Positions 3,664 to 32,960 of a stretch of 34,370 nt of DNA are shown piece after piece (the stretch's first letter is position 1; each line of letters opens with the position of its first letter). Below the pieces are notes generated by a model that saw only the letters and a program-made list of their open reading frames with translations, was not told the DNA's origin and did no database searches. The DNA comes from Candidatus Curtissbacteria bacterium RIFCSPHIGHO2_12_FULL_41_17 (lineage in GTDB: Bacteria; Patescibacteriota; Microgenomatia; Curtissbacterales; GWA2-41-24): the NCBI GenBank assembly GCA_001774945.1, contig MFBL01000058.1:1-34370 (forward strand), read 5' to 3'. The position numbers and the translations under genes were made by a program.

Positions 3664-6555
3664 TCATTTCTTAACAACTTCGATTTCAAACTGGCGGTCG
3701 GCTGCTAAATCGGTTTCGACGGTGAGGTTTTGCTTATTTGAGTACTTTTCATCTCCATTGACAGATTTTGTCAGCAGGTAACCGGGCAGGTTAAATTTAA
3801 ATTCCAAAGGGTCATTTTCGGTTCCGGGCTGTTTTTGGATATACAAGTGATAAGTGGGGGCGCTTTCAAGTTTAATGTTTCTGGGTATGCGATAAGAAAA
3901 ACTTACTTGTTTAGTTGATTTAATAGGCACTTCTACATACGTTGCAAACGTGGCAAGAGGCCCTGTGGTGGTAACTTCAACGGATTTAAGGTCAGTGATG
4001 TCGCCGTTTTTAATCTCAAACAAATCACTTCCCGCGGGTACGTAAACGCGCAGGAAATTAACGTATTTGCCAGCCGGCCAGGTTTCTGCCTGGCTATTAT
4101 TTGTATAAGTAATTGTTAAGCGGCCGACCAGATCCGCATCGCGGCCCACAGTCATTTCGTATGAAATTTTCCTTTGCAAAAACCTATTGACTTTATTGGC
4201 GCCAAGATTAGCTTCGGAAATAGCCAAAAAATCTCTGGTTTGGGTACTGTTATCACTAACATCAAATTGTCTGGGAGGCAATGGGCTGTCCCATCCGTGA
4301 GTGGCTACATAGGAAGCAAGGGTCGGGTTGTCAAATGAGACCAAGATGTGTTTTTTCTCCAGGCTTTCTTTAAAAACTTGCACAAGGGGTAAAAGCGGGG
4401 AAGCTGTCTTTTCATTATCTTTTAAAGTAGTAATTTGGGCAATGTCAGCCAAAACCTGGCTGATCATCTTTCTGGATAAAGACCCAAAAAAATCCCTTTT
4501 TTGGGTGGAACCCGGGAAAAAGCCGACCTCGCTGTAATATTCTCCCCGTTCGAACAGATTCTGGGCAGAAATTTCCTCATTATAATCATCAAGTTTGACA
4601 GGCCCCATTTTCCCAAGAACATCCTGAATAAAAGTTAGGTCGAAAGCAATTACTCCATCGACATTTCGGCCCGTTTCCTTTTTGAAAAAGTCTCTGGCGG
4701 TAGCGGCATTAAGGGCAAAATCGCCGCTCCAGTTAGAATCGCGAAGAAAAAAATTGTCAATTCCTAATTTTTCCTTAAGTTGTTTTGGGGGCTGGATTTT
4801 TTCCTTAAGTTGGCCGTCAATTGTGTAAATATCATCAACATTAACAGCATTTAGTTTCCCGCCTTCAAACTCAAGAGTGCCGAAATTGCCGATAAAGCCT
4901 CCGCCAGGCCGCAGTTCACTATTGTTTTGCAAAAGGATTAGGTAGGTTTTTTGCCCACCGCCGGTGAAGTCATTTAAAAGTTGCGTTATTTCCAGAGCCG
5001 AGGAGGATAAGTTATGGAGTTTTTCGAATGAGTCCTTTAAGGATTCAATTTTTGCTGCAAATGGCGCCGATTTTTTAGCTTGTGAACTTAAGACGACTGC
5101 TTTTGAGGAAAAAAACAAGGCCCTCTTAAAATCAGCTGAGGGCGCCTCCAAATCAAACCCATCGCTACTTGTTTGTTTAGAGGTGATGAGCGCAAAGTCT
5201 TCTGAGAGTGTTTTTGCACCCAGGCTAAAATAGAATAACGATTGAGAACCTGCGCCAGCTGCCGCAAATGCCAGATTGGTGCTTTTTATCTTCTGGGAAA
5301 TTACTAAACTCAATGGGAAAGACAGAATATTAAACTTATTTTGTGCTGCTTTAAAAGAATTTTGGGCACCTTTGGCTTTACTTTCAGCTTTATCAAAGTT
5401 TGCCAACATTAAAGCTTTTTTGGCATCATTTAATTTACTTGCCCCCAAATAAACATCAAGCCCTGTTTTTAAAATAGAGCCAAAAAGAATTAAAAGCAGT
5501 AAGATAACCAAATTTTTAAAACGTAAATTTAAGGTAATTTTGGGGACTTTTAGCCTTAGTCTTTCGGAAAAAGACTGAGTATCTGCCTCTTGGGGGTGCA
5601 ACTTTTCCCAAGACGGGCTTTGGTAATTTGTCCTTTGATGTTCCCTTGGAACTTGGTTTGCGCTTGAAAAAAGGCCCTTATCTTTAAAATATTCAAAGGT
5701 TAGCTTTAGGCCTTCTGTGAGTTTAATATTGGGATTAAAACCTAAATGTGACGCGTTAACTAACGGTTGCGGCGTGATTTTGTTTTTTGCAGGTCCTCCT
5801 GCAAAAAACAAACCCAGCTGCTTTGCACCGACAAGTGAGGCAACATTTTGAATTTCATAAGCAACCGAAAGAGAAGAAATTGGCTCCTCGCAGACAATAA
5901 TCTGCACGTCTTTGGTTTTAGGCGAAAAGGCAAATTTATTAATAGCTTCAACTGCGTCACTGATATAAGTCGGGTAGATCATTTTCATGCCTTCTTCTTC
6001 AAGGATTACCTTGTCTGTTGCAACTGCTTGGGAAATAAGAGATGCCAACTCCTTTTGGACCGGCCCTAGGCTGATTTGAGAAGAAACTGGCATTTTAGGG
6101 CCATAAATGTCACCTACAAGAAATATCCTCAGCTTGGCGCAAGTTGCATCATCTTTTATCAAATAATCAAATGAATCTATCCTAAATGAAAGAGGGGCTA
6201 CCAAAACTACTTGCGTCTTGCCAGTTTGGGCGAGGGCAATTATCGATTTGGTCGCCTGCGAAAAATGATGGAGAGCCTCATACGAATCCTTAGCAACGCC
6301 TGCTTCATCAAGATGAAAGATAAGATCAAACTGTGGTAAATAAGAGGGTAAAGGCTGACCTAATTCAAGCTCAAGAAGCGTAAAATTTTCCTTTGAAAGA
6401 AAAGGACTAAGCAGGCGGGAATTGCCTACCCCAAAAACATCGCAATTTTCAAGTATCAGAGAATCGGTAAGAGATGCACCCAGGTATGAGCCTGCACCGG
6501 TTATGAGAACCTGAGTCCTGTTATTTGAAAGTTTCAAGCGGGCAGATTCTTCCAT
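3664..6555 (-). CDS. N-terminal NAD(P)-dependent epimerase/dehydratase (SDR) domain fused through a TM helix to DUF4012
   Basis: N-term QVLITGAGSYLGASLTDSLI; TM ~ NLVILLLLILFGSILKTGLDVYLGA; DUF4012 signature TYLILLQNNSELRPGGGFIGNFG...DSNWSGDF. Confidence 0.85.
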   Translation of the reverse strand: MEESARLKLSNNRTQVLITGAGSYLGASLTDSLILENCDVFGVGNSRLLSPFLSKENFTLLELELGQPLPSYLPQFDLIFHLDEAGVAKDSYEALHHFSQATKSIIALAQTGKTQVVLVAPLSFRIDSFDYLIKDDATCAKLRIFLVGDIYGPKMPVSSQISLGPVQKELASLISQAVATDKVILEEEGMKMIYPTYISDAVEAINKFAFSPKTKDVQIIVCEEPISSLSVAYEIQNVASLVGAKQLGLFFAGGPAKNKITPQPLVNASHLGFNPNIKLTEGLKLTFEYFKDKGLFSSANQVPREHQRTNYQSPSWEKLHPQEADTQSFSERLRLKVPKITLNLRFKNLVILLLLILFGSILKTGLDVYLGASKLNDAKKALMLANFDKAESKAKGAQNSFKAAQNKFNILSFPLSLVISQKIKSTNLAFAAAGAGSQSLFYFSLGAKTLSEDFALITSKQTSSDGFDLEAPSADFKRALFFSSKAVVLSSQAKKSAPFAAKIESLKDSFEKLHNLSSSALEITQLLNDFTGGGQKTYLILLQNNSELRPGGGFIGNFGTLEFEGGKLNAVNVDDIYTIDGQLKEKIQPPKQLKEKLGIDNFFLRDSNWSGDFALNAATARDFFKKETGRNVDGVIAFDLTFIQDVLGKMGPVKLDDYNEEISAQNLFERGEYYSEVGFFPGSTQKRDFFGSLSRKMISQVLADIAQITTLKDNEKTASPLLPLVQVFKESLEKKHILVSFDNPTLASYVATHGWDSPLPPRQFDVSDNSTQTRDFLAISEANLGANKVNRFLQRKISYEMTVGRDADLVGRLTITYTNNSQAETWPAGKYVNFLRVYVPAGSDLFEIKNGDITDLKSVEVTTTGPLATFATYVEVPIKSTKQVSFSYRIPRNIKLESAPTYHLYIQKQPGTENDPLEFKFNLPGYLLTKSVNGDEKYSNKQNLTVETDLAADRQFEIEVVKK

Positions 6556-20395: not shown

Positions 20396-22246
20396 TCAGC
20401 CGCTTGGCGGATTCTGTGGCGTCTGGTCTTCGAATTCTTTAAGAATGGCTGCTGATTTTTTCTGCATCTCCAAAAGCTCTTCCGGGTTGGTGGTAACCAA
20501 GTAGTGTTCGTCTTCGGAGGCAACTACCCTGATTGCCACATGATTTGGGCCGGCAAAGAAAATACCCTCGCCGACATCTGCGGACAAAAGCAAATGTTTC
20601 TCGCCTTCTGAAAGATAAAAAACCTCGGAAACCTGATCGATTGCCGCAGGCGACTGTTTAAGAAGAATTTGGATGGAAGAGTTGGTGACAATGGCCTTAC
20701 CGTAATCTGTAGCTAAGAAATCCTGAACGTCTTGGGTGATAGTCGTTAATCCCAAATAATATTTTCTCGCTCTTTTGGCAATGGAATACATAAAAGTGGC
20801 GCTGTCCGGATACTGCATCAGGTACCAGGCTTCATCAACTATCAGGATTCTTTTCCTGATGTCGTTTTTGATGCGTGTCCAGATGTAGTCTAAAATCAGG
20901 TACATGGCAATCGGCCTAAGCTCGTCTTCCAGATCTTTAATCGAAAAGACAGTGAAGGTGTTTTTAATATCGATATTTGACTGCTGGTTAAAAATGCCAA
21001 TCAGGGAACCCTTAACAAATTTTTCTAAGCGATCGGCAAGACCTTTTGCCTGGGGTTCTTCCATTCCAAGAAGTGCCTTGTATAGATCTTCCATTAAGGG
21101 CGGTTCGTTTTTTTGCGTTGCCGGATCGGGAGTAATGCCTTTTGATTTATAAGTGGCAACCAAGGCTCTATCTAAAATCGCGTCTTCAGTCGGGGTAAGT
21201 TGGCCCATGATAACTCTAAGGAGTCCGTGCAGAGAAAGAATTTTAAGTCCAAGTTCATTTTCTCCTTCCTCATAAACCCCGGAAAGATCAAAGGGATTAA
21301 TTTTGGCAGCAGAGCTGAAATTAAATGAAATGTATTCTCCGCCTATCGCCTCACAAAGATTTTTATATTCCTCTTCGGGATCAATGACAATGATTTCCGT
21401 GCCGAACATTAAAGACCTTAAAGCTTCCAGTTTAACCAGATAAGATTTGCCGGCACCGGACTTGGCAAAAATGACGGCATTGGCATTTTCCTGGCTGAAT
21501 CTGTCAAAAATTACCAATGAGCCGTTATGCTCGTTGACTCCGTACATTACACCGGTATTGGATGAGAGGGTTGATGAGATAAAAGGGAAGGTGGTGGCCA
21601 GTGAGGTCGTATCCATATTTCGGGTAATATAAATATGGTCTGTTCCCTGGGGCAGAGTTGTTTTGAAAGCCTCCTCCTGCTGCAGGGTTGCGTGTTTGGG
21701 GACGAGCAAAAGAGCACCCAGGGTTGATTCTACTTGTTTGGAAATGGAGGCCAATTCTTCCAGCGAGTCTGCTGGAACCGTAACATAGAGTCCGAACTGG
21801 AAAAAGCGCTCTGCACCCTTAACTAATTCTTCCTGTAAAATCTGGGCATCTTCCAAAGCTGCCTGTACAGCCGGGTCGAGGACTTTGCCATGCTGAATAT
21901 CGGTAGCAATGGTTGCCTCCATTTCGGTCACCTTTCTTTTTAAATCGTCAAGCACACCCTTTGCCTCCACAGGGTAACAATACATGGCAATTTCCAGGGT
22001 ATGTTCAAAGTTAATTATAGGTGCGAGCCAGTTTGCCTGGACAAACCTTGGGTAGCCGACGACAAACAGGGTTCGAAAGAAAGTTGAGCCGACTTTTAAG
22101 TAGTCAAAATCGACCTCGATTGCCGGAGGGGCAACGATATCCTTAACAGAAACTATCCCGTTGGCTAGTGTCTGGGCCCACTTCTTTTCCCTCTCAGGAA
22201 GCTGTGTTTGGGTTTTTTTGGGTTTTAACAAATCAAATAAACTCAT
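20396..22246 (-). CDS. virB4: VirB4-like T4SS ATPase
   Basis: Walker A FAKSGAGKSYLVKLEALRSLMFG; IDPEEEYKNLCEAIGGEYISF; ILIVDEAWYLMQYPDSATF. Confidence 0.92.
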   Translation of the reverse strand: MSLFDLLKPKKTQTQLPEREKKWAQTLANGIVSVKDIVAPPAIEVDFDYLKVGSTFFRTLFVVGYPRFVQANWLAPIINFEHTLEIAMYCYPVEAKGVLDDLKRKVTEMEATIATDIQHGKVLDPAVQAALEDAQILQEELVKGAERFFQFGLYVTVPADSLEELASISKQVESTLGALLLVPKHATLQQEEAFKTTLPQGTDHIYITRNMDTTSLATTFPFISSTLSSNTGVMYGVNEHNGSLVIFDRFSQENANAVIFAKSGAGKSYLVKLEALRSLMFGTEIIVIDPEEEYKNLCEAIGGEYISFNFSSAAKINPFDLSGVYEEGENELGLKILSLHGLLRVIMGQLTPTEDAILDRALVATYKSKGITPDPATQKNEPPLMEDLYKALLGMEEPQAKGLADRLEKFVKGSLIGIFNQQSNIDIKNTFTVFSIKDLEDELRPIAMYLILDYIWTRIKNDIRKRILIVDEAWYLMQYPDSATFMYSIAKRARKYYLGLTTITQDVQDFLATDYGKAIVTNSSIQILLKQSPAAIDQVSEVFYLSEGEKHLLLSADVGEGIFFAGPNHVAIRVVASEDEHYLVTTNPEELLEMQKKSAAILKEFEDQTPQNPPSG

Positions 22247-23439
22247 ATGCTTTGTTTAAGCTGCCCCTGGCCGTTTTGGCTGACAGCCTGAGTCTTTGTA
22301 CTCTTATTCGTAGAAAAGCTTTGCTTATCAACGAATTGGGCGACCTTGGCTGCGGCTGTTTGCAAATTGGCAAGGGCGGCTTTTTGGTCAGCGGTCAAAT
22401 CGGGACTGGGCTGTGGAGGCCCAGCTGGGACAGTTGTTGCCGGTTGTATCTGGGAAGCTATGCTTTGTTGGGGTGCAGGCCTTAGCTGTTCCTGGGCGGT
22501 TGGAGTTGGCAAGGGTTGATCTTTTGCCTGCGGAGCCGCGTTTGACGGCGGCGGGACGTCTAACGTCCCTGCTGCGTTTGACTGCAGCGGTAAGTCAGAC
22601 TTGCCAGCCACGTTTGACGGTGGCGGGGGTACCGGGATCAGGTTACTTGGAAAAGGCGTACCTGCCTGAGGAGAAGGCGGAGTTTGGTTTGACGGCTGCG
22701 AGGTTGGCTGTTCGGTGGTGGTAGGAACTTGCGGGGTACTAGCTGGTGGCGGGGCAGGGACAGGCTCTTCGATGGCTGGTTCAACTATTGGTATCGTGTA
22801 GGATGCTGAATCTAAAATTACCCTTTGAGTACCGGTTGGCGCGGGGTTGTAAATATCATAAAATAATTCGATTAATTCCTGGGATGAAAGCTGCCGGGCA
22901 GTAAGTCCTAACCTTGCCAGCTGTTTAATAATGTGATCTCTTTTAGGGGAAAGGGCGGCTTTGGCATCCTCAATAAGCGCTCTTTTGCTTTTTGTTTTTT
23001 CGACGTTTCTTTTACCTAAACCTTTAAAGCCCATCTCAAGCGGCGAAAAATTGATAATAATATAAAACCTTTTGTCCAGAACCGCCCTTTGCTGAACAAT
23101 TGACTGGATAAAATCCCGGTATTTTTGAATCTGCCTTTTGATATCCGGATTAACTTGCCCTTTTTCTGCTTCTTCCAGATTGTTAAAATAAGCGGTAATA
23201 TCGGCTTTTTTTGACCTGATTAAAATTTGTACGGGGAAGGTTATGGAATTTAAAAATGCCCCGTATGCATAGATTGTGGCGTCCTGCTCGGCTTCCGAAA
23301 GAAGATCAAAGTTGACGGCGGTGGTTGATAAGACTAAGCCGACCCAGCCAGTCTTAAAAATTATCAGATCGTCTGCGATATCATCAAAATCAAGGTGCTC
23401 TTGCGTTGAAGATTTGATTTTAGTTAGATTTTTGGCCAT
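22243..23439 (-). CDS. TraC-like T4SS protein with Pro-rich C-terminal half
   Basis: LIFKTGWVGLVLSTTAVNFDLLSEAEQDATIYAYGAFLNSITFPVQILIRSKKADI; between VirB4 and PrgI; overlaps virB4 by 4 nt. Confidence 0.7.
   Translation of the reverse strand: MAKNLTKIKSSTQEHLDFDDIADDLIIFKTGWVGLVLSTTAVNFDLLSEAEQDATIYAYGAFLNSITFPVQILIRSKKADITAYFNNLEEAEKGQVNPDIKRQIQKYRDFIQSIVQQRAVLDKRFYIIINFSPLEMGFKGLGKRNVEKTKSKRALIEDAKAALSPKRDHIIKQLARLGLTARQLSSQELIELFYDIYNPAPTGTQRVILDSASYTIPIVEPAIEEPVPAPPPASTPQVPTTTEQPTSQPSNQTPPSPQAGTPFPSNLIPVPPPPSNVAGKSDLPLQSNAAGTLDVPPPSNAAPQAKDQPLPTPTAQEQLRPAPQQSIASQIQPATTVPAGPPQPSPDLTADQKAALANLQTAAAKVAQFVDKQSFSTNKSTKTQAVSQNGQGQLKQSI
22535..22642 (-). repeat. Three 36-nt tandem units, each with a covarying hairpin, inside the TraC-like CDS
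   Basis: Units at 22535, 22571 and 22607; hairpins GCCGC-GTTTGACG-GCGGC, GCTGC-GTTTGACT-GCAGC, GCCAC-GTTTGACG-GTGGC. Confidence 0.85.
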
Positions 23440-25051
23440 GAGATCCTCCTTTTTCTTTAATTGCCAACGGTGACAAGACCTCTCCAGTCAGGTTGAGCTT
23501 AATTGGTTCAAATAGTGCCTGGCGGCTTTCAACTTCCAGAATATATGTACCGTTTGGAAGTGACGTTGCCGAAAGAAACTGCCCAAGCTTATTTGTTTTG
23601 AGGGCACGTACAGGAATACCGTTTGTGTCTCTGACAGTAATAATTGCTCCAACAACCGGTGATTCGTCAAATTTTAAAACAAGACCGGAAAGGACATTAG
23701 GCCTGTTTGTTAAGGGGATAAGCTGGGCCCTATTTAAAGTTTCAGATGGGATAGTTATTGCCGGTGTTTTTTGGGCATTAATAGAAATTTTAGAATCAGT
23801 GGTGATTTGCTCCTGTGGTTTTAATGAAACTCCCTGAGCGGTTTGGAGTTTTACCTGGAAGGCAGGGATTATTTCTTGCGCCTTAAAGATACCAGCGTTG
23901 TCTACCTTTTTTTGATCGATAGCCATTGGCGCTGGTACCTGCGGTTTTAAAACATTTTCAGTCGGTAAAATAACGGGAGGGGCTTGGTCTGCTCCTGCCT
24001 CTATAAAAGAATCCTCAATATCATAGTGTTTTTTTAATTCTTCAGAGATTTCAAATCGCTTTTCTCCTCGAATTGGCAAGTTAGCGATATTAAAATTGGC
24101 AGGGGGCGCAAAGTGCAGTTTACGAACTCGGGTTTTACCGATTCCGGGAATAAATGTAATGGTTTCCTTGTGGCTTACCGGAATAAAGACATCGTAAAGG
24201 AAATTGTTTTCAGAGGCTAAGTGGGCCGCAGGTGTTATCGTAATTGGAGATTTGATAAGTTCCACAGGCTCAAAACCTGGTTCTTGCCCAACTTGTGATT
24301 TTTGCAGCTTTTTTTCGATCCCAGCAAGGGTATAGGGTTTAGCATGGTCTGAGATTTTGACTTTTTTTTGTGCCGGAGCCGCCTGCTCTTTTGGTATTTG
24401 GGGATGGACTTGGGGAAGGGCCTGGCCCATTTTGCCAAGATATTCTTCTTCCGGCTTCATTGCCCGAAAACCGGCCGGGTTATTTTGCTGTGGCAGTGAT
24501 GCTCCCAAATAAACAGGCGCCTGCGGATAAATTTGGGATGGAAAGATGATAGGCGGCGGAAGGATGCCCTGGCTGGTTACAACAGGCGTAAGATTAAGTC
24601 TCTCAATTGAAGTTTGCTCCTTGATATCAAGAGGTGTTTCTAAATTTTTCGGTAAGGAGCGCAGATAAGCGACTAATCTTTCGCGGCCCTGGGTTGTAAT
24701 TTCCTCAGGAGCATTTTGCGTATAACTTGGCGAAGTAACAACATTTAAAAATTCGGGGATTTTTTCCTCTTTTATCCAGATTCTTTGAGTTGGTGAAAGG
24801 ATAGCCTTGATAAAAGCGACGACCCATTTATCAAAAGGCCTGCCGCCTATGGGCACAAGAGCAGAAAAGATGCCGAATCCGCCAAAGAGTATAGCCAAAG
24901 GCAGCCGAATTATTGGATTTAAATTGGAGAAAAAGAAAATGGCCGCAAAGGACATAGGAATAGCCAGAGTGACAAACTGCCTGACTGTTAAGTTGCCGAA
25001 CAGCTTGAATTCAAACGAAGCGATATGTTGCGGGACAGGATGTTGTTCCAT
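23420..25051 (-). CDS. PrgI-family protein with long linker and C-terminal carboxypeptidase-regulatory-like (beta-sandwich) domain
   Basis: N-term MEQHPVPQHIASFEFKLFGNLTVRQFVTLAIP with two TM; C-term VLSGLVLKFDESPVVGAIITVRDTNGIPVRALKTNKLGQFLSATSLPNGTYILEVES. Confidence 0.85.
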   Translation of the reverse strand: MEQHPVPQHIASFEFKLFGNLTVRQFVTLAIPMSFAAIFFFSNLNPIIRLPLAILFGGFGIFSALVPIGGRPFDKWVVAFIKAILSPTQRIWIKEEKIPEFLNVVTSPSYTQNAPEEITTQGRERLVAYLRSLPKNLETPLDIKEQTSIERLNLTPVVTSQGILPPPIIFPSQIYPQAPVYLGASLPQQNNPAGFRAMKPEEEYLGKMGQALPQVHPQIPKEQAAPAQKKVKISDHAKPYTLAGIEKKLQKSQVGQEPGFEPVELIKSPITITPAAHLASENNFLYDVFIPVSHKETITFIPGIGKTRVRKLHFAPPANFNIANLPIRGEKRFEISEELKKHYDIEDSFIEAGADQAPPVILPTENVLKPQVPAPMAIDQKKVDNAGIFKAQEIIPAFQVKLQTAQGVSLKPQEQITTDSKISINAQKTPAITIPSETLNRAQLIPLTNRPNVLSGLVLKFDESPVVGAIITVRDTNGIPVRALKTNKLGQFLSATSLPNGTYILEVESRQALFEPIKLNLTGEVLSPLAIKEKGGSHGQKSN

Positions 25052-25254: not shown

Positions 25255-26565
25255 CTACGGATTAAAGCGGAAGCCCTGCCCTTTTACTGTTATTGTATGC
25301 TTAGGATTGTTGGGATCATCCTCGGTTTTTTTACGCAGGCGATAAATTAGCTGGTCAATTGCTTCGTCTGTGATACCCTCGGCGACTAGGGCTTGCGGCC
25401 AGACTGCTTTGATGATTTCATCGCGAGTTATAAGGCGGCCTTGATTTTCGATTAAAAACTGCAGCAGGCGATATTCTTGCGGCGAAAGCAGGTCAGTAAT
25501 CAGATTTTGCCCCCTCATTATCTCCTTTGTCTTCTCGTTAAAAGTAAATTTTTCCGAAATCAGAGTGGGAACAGTGCTTATTACAAATTCTTTTAACAAT
25601 GGGATAGTAAAAATATATTGTTGTATTGTTAAATTGCCTGCCTGCCGGCGAGGCAGGTTAGATTGTTCCAATTTCTTAAGCAAATCGAATTTAATAAGAT
25701 TCTCCAGGGTATCTTTCATCGGCTCTTTGTTTTGGGCAACTGACCTGAGAGCCTGTTGCTCCGGAGCAGTTAAGGCCAGCCAAATTTCGGAAAGGGTCGC
25801 TTGGACAATTTGTGTTTTAAGGAGAGTATCCATATCAAGCGAAATATTTTCCCTGAGATGTGATTCTGCCAAGACTTTAGTCAGTTTAATATGTCCGCCT
25901 GAAATATCTATGATTTTTTCTTTATCTTTTTGGGGAATTTTTTTGTCAAATACCCGTTCAATTTGCGAAAAGAGGAGATTAGTGGCAGCCTCGTCATGGA
26001 TTGCAAGATAGACAATATTGCCGGTAAAAAAATCATAGAAATCCTTCAAAATCTCCCCGTCAACAAGTTCTGTCAGATCTCTTCTGGTTGCAAAGGCTAC
26101 TGCAAATTTATATTTGGCGATACTTTTGAGGCTTCTTAACAGCTGAAAGAATGATCTGGGAATCCGGTTTTGATATTCGTCAAAGTGATCGAAAAGAAAA
26201 ATAATAGTTTGACCTTGTACAACAAGTTTATTGACAGCCTCGGTTAACTTTTTTGTCAGAACAAAGTAATCGCCAGTATTAGGCGCTTTTTCGTCGAGTG
26301 CTACAAGCAAAAACTTGGCGATCTGTTCCTCTTGATAGTTAGTATGTTCCAAATTTAAGTAGAGAAAACGGACAGCCTCCTCTTTTTCTTTAAGGTGGAA
26401 CTTTAGCAAATTGCGGTTATGGGAAAGAAGCCGAAGAATTGTGGCTTTGCCGGCACCGGGAATGCAGACAATTTGGCAGAATTTACCCGTAAGTACATAG
26501 TCTAATATTTGTTTGACTTCCCCCCGGCGGTAGTCGTTTGGGAATGTGGACTCGAAGATAAGCAT
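25255..26565 (-). CDS. P-loop ATPase fused to C-terminal OmpR/PhoB-type winged helix (putative regulator)
   Basis: CIPGAGKATILRLL P-loop; IIFLFDHFDE Walker B; C-term LLSPQEYRLLQFLIENQGRLITRDEIIKAVWP...IDQLIYRLRKKTEDDPNNPKHTITVKGQGFRF. Confidence 0.85.
   Translation of the reverse strand: MLIFESTFPNDYRRGEVKQILDYVLTGKFCQIVCIPGAGKATILRLLSHNRNLLKFHLKEKEEAVRFLYLNLEHTNYQEEQIAKFLLVALDEKAPNTGDYFVLTKKLTEAVNKLVVQGQTIIFLFDHFDEYQNRIPRSFFQLLRSLKSIAKYKFAVAFATRRDLTELVDGEILKDFYDFFTGNIVYLAIHDEAATNLLFSQIERVFDKKIPQKDKEKIIDISGGHIKLTKVLAESHLRENISLDMDTLLKTQIVQATLSEIWLALTAPEQQALRSVAQNKEPMKDTLENLIKFDLLKKLEQSNLPRRQAGNLTIQQYIFTIPLLKEFVISTVPTLISEKFTFNEKTKEIMRGQNLITDLLSPQEYRLLQFLIENQGRLITRDEIIKAVWPQALVAEGITDEAIDQLIYRLRKKTEDDPNNPKHTITVKGQGFRFNP
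25637..25657. repeat. Palindromic repeat CCTGCCT-GCCGGCG-AGGCAGG in frame within the regulator CDS
   Basis: Perfect 7-bp stem; encodes LPRRQAGN. Confidence 0.85.
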
Positions 26566-31239: not shown

Positions 31240-32861
31240 CCACCTGAGCCATCATCAGGAGGTCTTCTTCCGAGATACAATTCTCTTCTTTTTCTTGCGG
31301 CGCTTCCGAGGAAGCCTGGGAGTTTTGTTGCTCTGTCCTCTTGTGCTGCCTGACCGGCTGATTGGAATGCGCCCCTTACATGTCCCACAGCTGCCCTTGC
31401 GCCTGATCCTGTATAGGCTACTCCTGCACCTGCGCCGAGGGCGCCGCCGATTGCGCCTCCGACTCCTGCTCCGCCGCCAAGACCTTTTGCGCCGATTGCT
31501 TCTTTGATCATCTTTGCCGCCTCCGGAGTCATAAATAAGACTCCGAGTGCGATTATTTTACCAATTGCAGCCGGCTCAAATCCACCGACGAGTAAAGGGA
31601 ACTTGAGAGCCCCTGAATCTGCTCCACCAAATGCACCTTCACCCTTTCCGCCAAAGGCCTCGATGCCGCCTACAATGCCGGCGAAAATGATCATTAAGGC
31701 AACTGTCGGGAAAACAGAAAGGTTGGCAGCCATTTGCTTAAACCACTCTTTGGCGCCGTTGTTGCCCGGAAGCGCCTGGATTAAAAAATAAAAAGGGGAA
31801 GCTATAGTCATAATAAGAATCATCACATAGGCCATCAAAAGCATTAGAAAAACCCTGAACATGATAAAAAGGGCGGCAATACCGACTATCAGACCGGCTA
31901 GTCCGGCTAACGGCCATTTACCAAGAAATTTAATGATATCGATGAGTGTTCCCCCACTGTCAAATATTGTATCGAGAAAGCTTGCAATAGCTTGGGCGGT
32001 TGTCACAAAAATTTCACCCCAGGAGCTAGTAATAACGCCGAAGATGCTTTTATCAAAGGCCACACCTTTAGCTGTATCTGGATCGATCAGTGTACCTGGT
32101 AATGCGTTTATAATAACGTTTAAACCCAGAAACATTAAGTCGATCATTAGACCAGCAATGGCATAGCTAAAGGTGACAAGTATTAAAGCAACAACTATTC
32201 TTGGCAGAGAGTCCTGAACAGTAGCCACAGCTTGCGGTGAAATGTGGGCTCGAAACATTATCATAAAGCCCATGATCACAAAAATTATTACAAACCCAAG
32301 ATAAGCAATATTCCTGAAGGCTTCCCAGAGTGCTTTGACAGGCTCTAATGCTCCATAGCCAAAACCCTGCGCATAGGCAGGCTGAACAGGGTTAAATTTC
32401 TGGATTTGCTGGGCGAAATACTGGACGCCGGAGGCTGGCGGTTTTGAGTATAGGCTGGCAACAAGATTGGAAGTGGCGGCCAAAGCGCCGCGACCGGCTG
32501 TGACCTCGTCTGTTTCGGGGTGAAGCAGAGAGATGCCCAAAAGATGGGTATTGAGGCTGTCGATGGTACCGGCGATTTGGTTCAGGTTAAATACCTTGTC
32601 GTCAAAGGCGTTCTTCTTAATCGCGCATTTGTTTATTACGTCGATAGCTTGCTGGGCTGTTGCATCATCTGGAATTTGACATTCGGCTGTGGGGCTGGGG
32701 GATGGTCCGACGGCGTGGGCGGGGCGGGGGGCAACGATAAACAATAAACTAGAAACTAGAAACAAGAAACTTACGGCAAGAAGCGTTAAGCGTTTAGCGT
32801 TTAGCGTTAAGCAGGCAGCGATTCTCATCCTTCGACCCTTCGGTAAGCTCAGGGCAAGCAC
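31236..32861 (-). CDS. VirB6/TrbL-like multi-TM T4SS protein with Gly-rich C-terminus; N-terminus overlaps repeats
   Basis: IAYLGFVIIFVIMGFMIMFRAHISPQAVATVQDSLPRIVVALILVTFSYAIAGLMIDLMFLG plus further TMs; T4SS context. Confidence 0.7.
   Translation of the reverse strand: MLALSLPKGRRMRIAACLTLNAKRLTLLAVSFLFLVSSLLFIVAPRPAHAVGPSPSPTAECQIPDDATAQQAIDVINKCAIKKNAFDDKVFNLNQIAGTIDSLNTHLLGISLLHPETDEVTAGRGALAATSNLVASLYSKPPASGVQYFAQQIQKFNPVQPAYAQGFGYGALEPVKALWEAFRNIAYLGFVIIFVIMGFMIMFRAHISPQAVATVQDSLPRIVVALILVTFSYAIAGLMIDLMFLGLNVIINALPGTLIDPDTAKGVAFDKSIFGVITSSWGEIFVTTAQAIASFLDTIFDSGGTLIDIIKFLGKWPLAGLAGLIVGIAALFIMFRVFLMLLMAYVMILIMTIASPFYFLIQALPGNNGAKEWFKQMAANLSVFPTVALMIIFAGIVGGIEAFGGKGEGAFGGADSGALKFPLLVGGFEPAAIGKIIALGVLFMTPEAAKMIKEAIGAKGLGGGAGVGGAIGGALGAGAGVAYTGSGARAAVGHVRGAFQSAGQAAQEDRATKLPGFLGSAARKRRELYLGRRPPDDGSGG
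32739..32812. repeat. Two short-word repeat tracts encoding the signal-peptide region of the VirB6-like protein
   Basis: aaacaataaactagaaactagaaacaagaaac (32739-32770) and aagcgttaagcgtttagcgtttagcgttaagc (32781-32812). Confidence 0.8.
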
Positions 32862-32878
32862 TTCGATAAACTCAGTGC
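32836..32878. repeat. Two hairpin repeats of the TCGRYAARCTC-loop family
   Basis: CCCT-TCGGTAAGCTC-AGGG (32836-32854) and GCACT-TCGATAAACTC-AGTGC (32858-32878). Confidence 0.85.
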
Positions 32879-32960
32879 ATGCAAGCTCAGGACGAGTGCA
32901 GGCTATAAAGTCTGAAACTCGAACTAATTTAATCTTAAGTCTAAATATTTACTGCGTCAA

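Follow-up and report, generated by a model that had tools for sequence, protein, structure and literature searches.

The window analysed here, a 34,370-nucleotide stretch of DNA from a Candidatus Curtissbacteria bacterium, is part of an 836-kb draft genome in 58 contigs and carries an array of small hairpins within the tail of a protein-coding gene (Table 1). The sole Pfam match of the host protein is TraC_F_IV, under its cut-off, so the label TraC-like given to it in an earlier note on this DNA is weak, although the operon, with its VirB4/TraG ATPase and PrgI genes, fits it. Homologues in Curtissbacteria and other CPR bacteria have the N-terminal part in common, and their tails cannot be aligned. 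Because this leaves the related Pro-rich tails unalignable over the array, the host gene itself yields no comparison of filled and empty forms.

Table 1 Genes and hairpins at the array locus, in window coordinates.
Feature	Description	Position	Strand	Model match
Host gene	398-aa protein; N-terminal part conserved, array in the Pro-rich tail (peptide PPPSNVAGKSDLPLQSNAAGTLDVPPPSNAA)	22243..23439	-	
Neighbour	VirB4/TraG-type P-loop ATPase, type IV secretion locus	20396..22246	-	PF19044, E 6e-28
Neighbour	PrgI-family protein	23420..25051	-	PF12666, E 1e-7
Hairpin B1	GCCGC-GT-TTG-AC-(g)-GCGGC, one bulged base	22535..22552	+	
Hairpin A1	GGGACGT-CTA-ACGTCCC, 7 bp, perfect	22553..22569	+	R1, 22553-22588, E 1.6e-4
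Hairpin B2	GCTGC-GT-TTG-AC-(t)-GCAGC	22571..22588	+	
Hairpin A2	GGTAAGT-CAG-ACTTGCC, 7 bp including one T.G pair	22589..22605	+	R1, 22589-22624, E 2.1e-6
Hairpin B3	GCCAC-GT-TTG-AC-(g)-GTGGC, last of the array	22607..22624	+	

The array (22535-22624) had been noticed as three 36-nt units on the + strand of the window, starting at 22535, 22571 and 22607, in which compensating stems (those of B1, B2 and B3) enclose the nearly fixed sequence GTTTGAC plus one base, and both the sequence and the coordinates proved correct. A better description of what was taken for a loop is two extra base pairs (GT/AC), which close a 3-nt loop (TTG), and one bulged base. On folding, all five hairpins of the window follow a common plan, N5-GT-NNN-AC-N5', at a spacing of 18 nt, and they alternate as inverted hairpins in the order B-A-B-A-B. 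Both second hairpins described for units 1 and 2 exist, A1 as the perfect stem that was reported and A2 with one T.G pair, which is a C-A mismatch on the mRNA strand. Unit 3 has no second hairpin; hence the array ends at 22624, and the final 18 nt of the third unit as originally drawn lie outside it. The folding z score is -2.7 for DNA (0 of 200 shuffles) and -2.6 for RNA (4 of 200), and an Rfam scan of the window gave no match at the gathering score. The B stems do coincide with proline and alanine codons, and chance or coding bias might give GC stems wherever a 12-aa protein repeat uses CCN and GCN codons. We find this hardly credible: with the protein held fixed, none of 1,000 synonymous re-draws matched the stems, and their folding was far weaker (-22.5 +/- 4.8 kcal/mol, compared with -43.6 kcal/mol for the array), which shows that the array is not a by-product of these codons; the same hairpins are moreover found outside genes and in other reading frames.

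A search of the window's own genome for related hairpins found an intergenic GGAACGTCAAACGTTCC-AA-CCGCGTCTGACGCGG, spaced by 18 nt as in the array and with different stems, and the core pattern GTYNRAC-N11-GTYNRAC finds hairpin pairs throughout the Curtissbacteria-like family. Since reversed-pattern controls match about as often as the forward pattern in most genomes, it is the paired stems, and not the core pattern alone, that count as evidence. Where places were chosen by the core pattern without any demand for pairing, in 18 of 26 the bases outside the core form a stem of 4 bp or more (about 0.2 expected, by our estimate). A covariance model, R1, was built from 13 copies elsewhere, with the window sequence excluded; 96% of their stem cells are paired, double changes number 42 where shuffles give 13.7, and the covariation score is 0.604 compared with 0.189 (0 of 500 shuffles), although some of these 13 were kept because their stems were present, the unselected figure being the 18 of 26. 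The model matches the window array in two places (Table 1). The earlier note proposed selection on nucleic-acid structure and not only on protein; structure, and not the protein, is indeed the conserved feature, as is seen from this covariation across genomes and from hairpins that occur intergenically, where the note had suggested looking for them, or that other genes read in other frames. The covariance-model search of related genomes that it also suggested gives matches in 13 of the 15 family genomes at E<=1 and in 11 of 15 at E<=1e-4. Across the class the distribution is patchy (22 of 137 genomes at E<=1e-4); the order-level genome set consists of the same 15 genomes as the family, and because few candidates in each genome were scored in the search of the phylum, absence outside the class is weak evidence. 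We found no description of such repeats from CPR bacteria in the open-access papers searched, where absence is not proof.

The usual element is an inverted pair of 17-nt hairpins of the plan given above, about 32 nt long and without an interior. Among 42 pairs the first loop is CAA in 27 and the second TTG in 22; TTG is the reverse complement of CAA, and hence the two hairpins are inverted copies, separated by a 1-nt spacer in 29 pairs. The arms follow the pattern N1-N2-C-R-M: what is fixed is the shape of the hairpin with its loop and closing bases, and the stem sequence is free provided that pairing holds. Arm positions 2 and 4 differ between the hairpins of a pair beyond expectation (p ~0.01 for either position, 0.05 overall), differences that would stop the hairpins from pairing with one another. 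Outer flank pairs were not above shuffles, which gives no outer stem around both hairpins. After one tmRNA gene (L158, 1235-1305) two hairpins lie about 46 nt apart with other sequence between them, a variant that may be a longer version of the element.

Of 39 pairs, ten extend 2-4 nt into the end of a tRNA gene, where we would expect about 0.05 from roughly 45 tRNA genes per Mb, and in two further cases a tmRNA gene has a copy at its 3' end or close to it (L158, and L147 as judged from its sequence only). In-gene copies are found in DnaX, ValS, a glycosyltransferase and an adhesin-like protein, and the element is in frame in dnaX, valS and the glycosyltransferase gene as it is in the window gene; for ValS, the flanks align with 11 orthologues and the insert is in the G013 copy only. 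In two unrelated genomes (L037, ~680-740; L163, ~1480-1560) a tRNA-Asn 5' fragment, cut off by another repeat, lies beside a hairpin element about 300 nt from an intact tRNA-Asn, possibly as the scar of an integrating element.

The borders of the element carry direct repeats of 3-4 nt. Over four positions, left and right borders of pairs match at rates of.52/.78/.80/.72, compared with.32/.56/.50/.33 in shuffles, and 21 of 46 copies have 4 or more equal bases in a row, where 5.8 are expected (0 of 1,000 shuffles); among single hairpins, 11 of 63 have abutting 3-nt repeats (2.4 expected). These genomes also contain another common repeat, which several single hairpins split so that it reads CCTTCGACTTC-[17-nt hairpin]-TTCGCTCAGG with TTC duplicated, as at L070 in the window's own genome, and its uninterrupted form CCTTCGACTTCGCTCAGG is present at about ten places, the comparison being between filled and empty forms of one repeat and not of one site. 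The flanking repeats of pairs sit 2 nt inside the outer arms and those of single hairpins do not, so the element boundaries are provisional. The outer arm bases agree with the local target sequence, and the inner arm complements them.

Orthologous sites show how stems behave over time. At the 5' site of tRNA-Asn in three genera the element is retained; one hairpin has a compensated C-G to T-A change (G010), and the other has lost pairs in two of the three genomes. A tRNA-Ser site common to the window's genome and G014 has a one-sided stem change. Therefore compensation is common between copies and is not strict within one copy over time. The earlier note would have taken uncompensated stems, or a lack of covariation, as speaking against it, and the outcome is mixed: some orthologous stems have changed without compensation, whereas others are compensated and covariation is strong. 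Template switching during replication makes and repairs perfect stems (PMC8794818; also PMC7202029, PMC8604942), for which reason covariation here is not proof of selection. The combination of differing stems and a constant loop characterises the family; it is there when a copy originates or is maintained later.

We consider it likely that a short palindromic repeat is spreading by insertion among the genomes of this Curtissbacteria-like CPR family and that the five hairpins of the window are an array of it inside a gene. Comparison of the sequences establishes the dispersal, the covariation between copies, the flanking repeats, the copies in genes and at tRNA ends, and the interrupted and uninterrupted target repeat; of these, the dispersal, the flanking repeats and the interrupted repeat with its TTC duplication argue for insertion of a REP/RPE-like element over a structure selected within the gene. 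The selection on structure inside the coding sequence that the earlier note suggested is thus not upheld, and the gene would instead carry copies of a dispersed, inserted element. Some features count against insertion: the RAYT transposase genes of the window's genome have no such hairpin in their flanks, the flanking repeats of pairs are placed differently from those of single hairpins, and most copies have stem sequences unlike each other, in contrast to what a recently copied master element would leave. Mechanistically, an enzyme may recognise the hairpin as single-stranded DNA and insert the element, which would have entered the host gene at a disordered Pro-rich tail able to accept 12-aa steps; the 36-nt unit could then have multiplied in frame, through repeat insertion or slippage. 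The arms would stay complementary partly through template switching, one arm being copied onto the other, or through re-making at insertion, and so not solely through selection. This account would require no function of the TraC-like gene.

Several other accounts have to be weighed. Selection might maintain the hairpins as functional RNA or DNA structures, such as signals for tRNA processing or for termination, or sites bound by a protein that reads the loop; the gene copy would then be a regulatory structure of the mRNA. The strong covariation across genomes would fit, as would the exact placement at tRNA and tmRNA gene ends and the retention before tRNA-Asn in three genera with its one compensated change. 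We nevertheless think it unlikely, in view of copies that occupy unrelated genes of single genomes in different reading frames, a patchy distribution, direct repeats at the borders, insertion into another repeat, and one hairpin that decays uncompensated in two of three tRNA-Asn orthologues; the host-gene structure even pairs slightly better on the strand that is not the mRNA. A closer contender, to which we give somewhat less than an even chance, keeps all of the insertion account and has stem compensation made by a mutation process, template switching between the arms, and not by selection. The process is a documented one that creates and repairs perfect stems, and outer arms made of local target bases with complementary inner arms are what arm homogenisation would give, but orthologous copies keep uncompensated mismatches, so homogenisation would be slow at best. 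It is also conceivable, though quite improbable, that only the loop and the shape are carried over and that the outer arms are rewritten at each insertion as the complement of target bases, with tRNA and tmRNA ends preferred. This is allowed by direct repeats that overlap outer arm bases and by stems that vary within one genome and, if true, would give every copy a different but perfect stem.

As to what moves the inserted element, RAYT (IS200-like Y1) transposases, as proposed for REP sequences, are possible movers that we hold tentatively, at less than even odds. Y1_Tnp genes are found in 13 of the 15 family genomes, the inverted pairs and arrays resemble REP dimers, and within 500 nt of RAYT genes there are 7 GT-YNR-AC hairpins in 20.8 kb, compared with 0.02 per kb in sampled own-genome DNA, a density about 17 times higher. 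However, these are mostly other, G-rich stems, closely placed hairpins of the window type being found only beside a RAYT gene in G002 (L092), and G005 has elements and no detected RAYT. Y1 enzymes are also not expected to leave direct repeats when they insert, which counts against them. In the window's genome neither of the two RAYT genes has such a hairpin in its flanks, and RAYT was rejected as the mover there; one of the two ends with a different hairpin, AAGGAGAATCCTT. The link between RAYT and the element has partial support and is a lead, not a result, which leaves RAYT genes as candidate movers. An unsystematic look through ~0.6 Mb of sampled G014 and G086 sequence saw no autonomous parent that shares the ends of the element. 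In three genomes (L091, L093, L106) a AAGGAGAATCCTT-type hairpin stands at or near the RAYT gene, likely a REP family of its own. Another RAYT gene (L100) has GGGGTTAAACCCC hairpins at both ends (1897-1924, 2578-2600), and tandem GGGGTCCGACCCC...GGGGTTGAACCCC pairs occur elsewhere (L099, L047); together these form a sister type that is G-rich and likewise closes on GT-NNN-AC.

Among known systems, Rickettsia palindromic elements (RPE) are likewise short palindromic inserts found intergenically and in frame in unrelated genes, including replication and translation genes, and in-frame copies in unrelated protein genes are found here too (the window gene, DnaX, ValS and the glycosyltransferase). 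RPE-4 and RPE-6 correspond to repeats that carry a CGTC tag, a stem of 8-9 bp and a loop of 4-5 nt (PMC3733652), whereas the present element has 5+2-bp stems of free sequence, 3-nt loops, fixed closing bases and no CGTC tag, and is tightly placed at tRNA ends. REP, BIME and REPtron sequences (GTAG or CGTC families) are also small hairpins, mostly in inverted hetero-pairs and alternating arrays and some of them in genes, their genomes carry RAYT transposases, and REP pairs also tend to be unlike (PMC3733652). Inverted dimers and clusters are equally found here, with hetero-pairs preferred at arm positions 2 and 4, but flanking base counts in 39 pairs gave no GTAG or CGTC tetranucleotide at the hairpin foot, and the element differs in its fixed loop and closing bases, variable stems and 3-4-nt flanking direct repeats. 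MITEs are similar as non-autonomous elements with terminal inverted repeats and a target-site duplication, which is found here as well; the present element, in contrast, is ~32 nt long without an interior, each terminal repeat is itself a hairpin, and its partner transposase is only a candidate. TIGR arrays (TIGR-Tas, PMC12045711) also repeat every 36 nt and alternate two conserved blocks separated by variable stretches, but here the variable stretches pair with each other around the conserved block, and copies are mostly isolated pairs, many at tRNA ends, with the window array inside an ORF. A TIGR-Tas array was rejected, since the spacers form stems and the neighbours lack a Nop domain, none being found among six neighbouring proteins scanned. 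The element is best explained as a palindromic repeat of the REP/RPE type that lacks the REP tag and is unlike the named RPE families in stem, loop and tag. What it adds to known palindromic repeats is the placement at tRNA ends, the border duplications and the freely varying stems.

An apparent RNA structure within a gene would in this way lead to a traceable family of mobile hairpins in bacteria with very small genomes, one that lands precisely at tRNA and tmRNA ends with a 3-4-base duplication. As the stems change while loop and shape stay, the family lends itself to the question of whether covariation invariably reflects selection or may also result from template switching, and covariation tests on repeats should be read with caution, for they can report insertion history. 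The window has further small repeats that are read into ORFs (25637-25657; 18-878; 32781-32883), with the peptides 'NLPRRQAGN' (hairpin CCTGCCT-GCCGGCG-AGGCAGG), 'SFAKATDGK' and 'ALSLPKGRR'/'PFGKLRAST', which seem to represent distinct families of palindromic repeats in this genome. A 15-bp perfect inverted repeat, TTTGTTTTTTGCAGG-TCCT-CCTGCAAAAAACAAA, lies at 5779-5812 within a 963-aa ORF on the minus strand.
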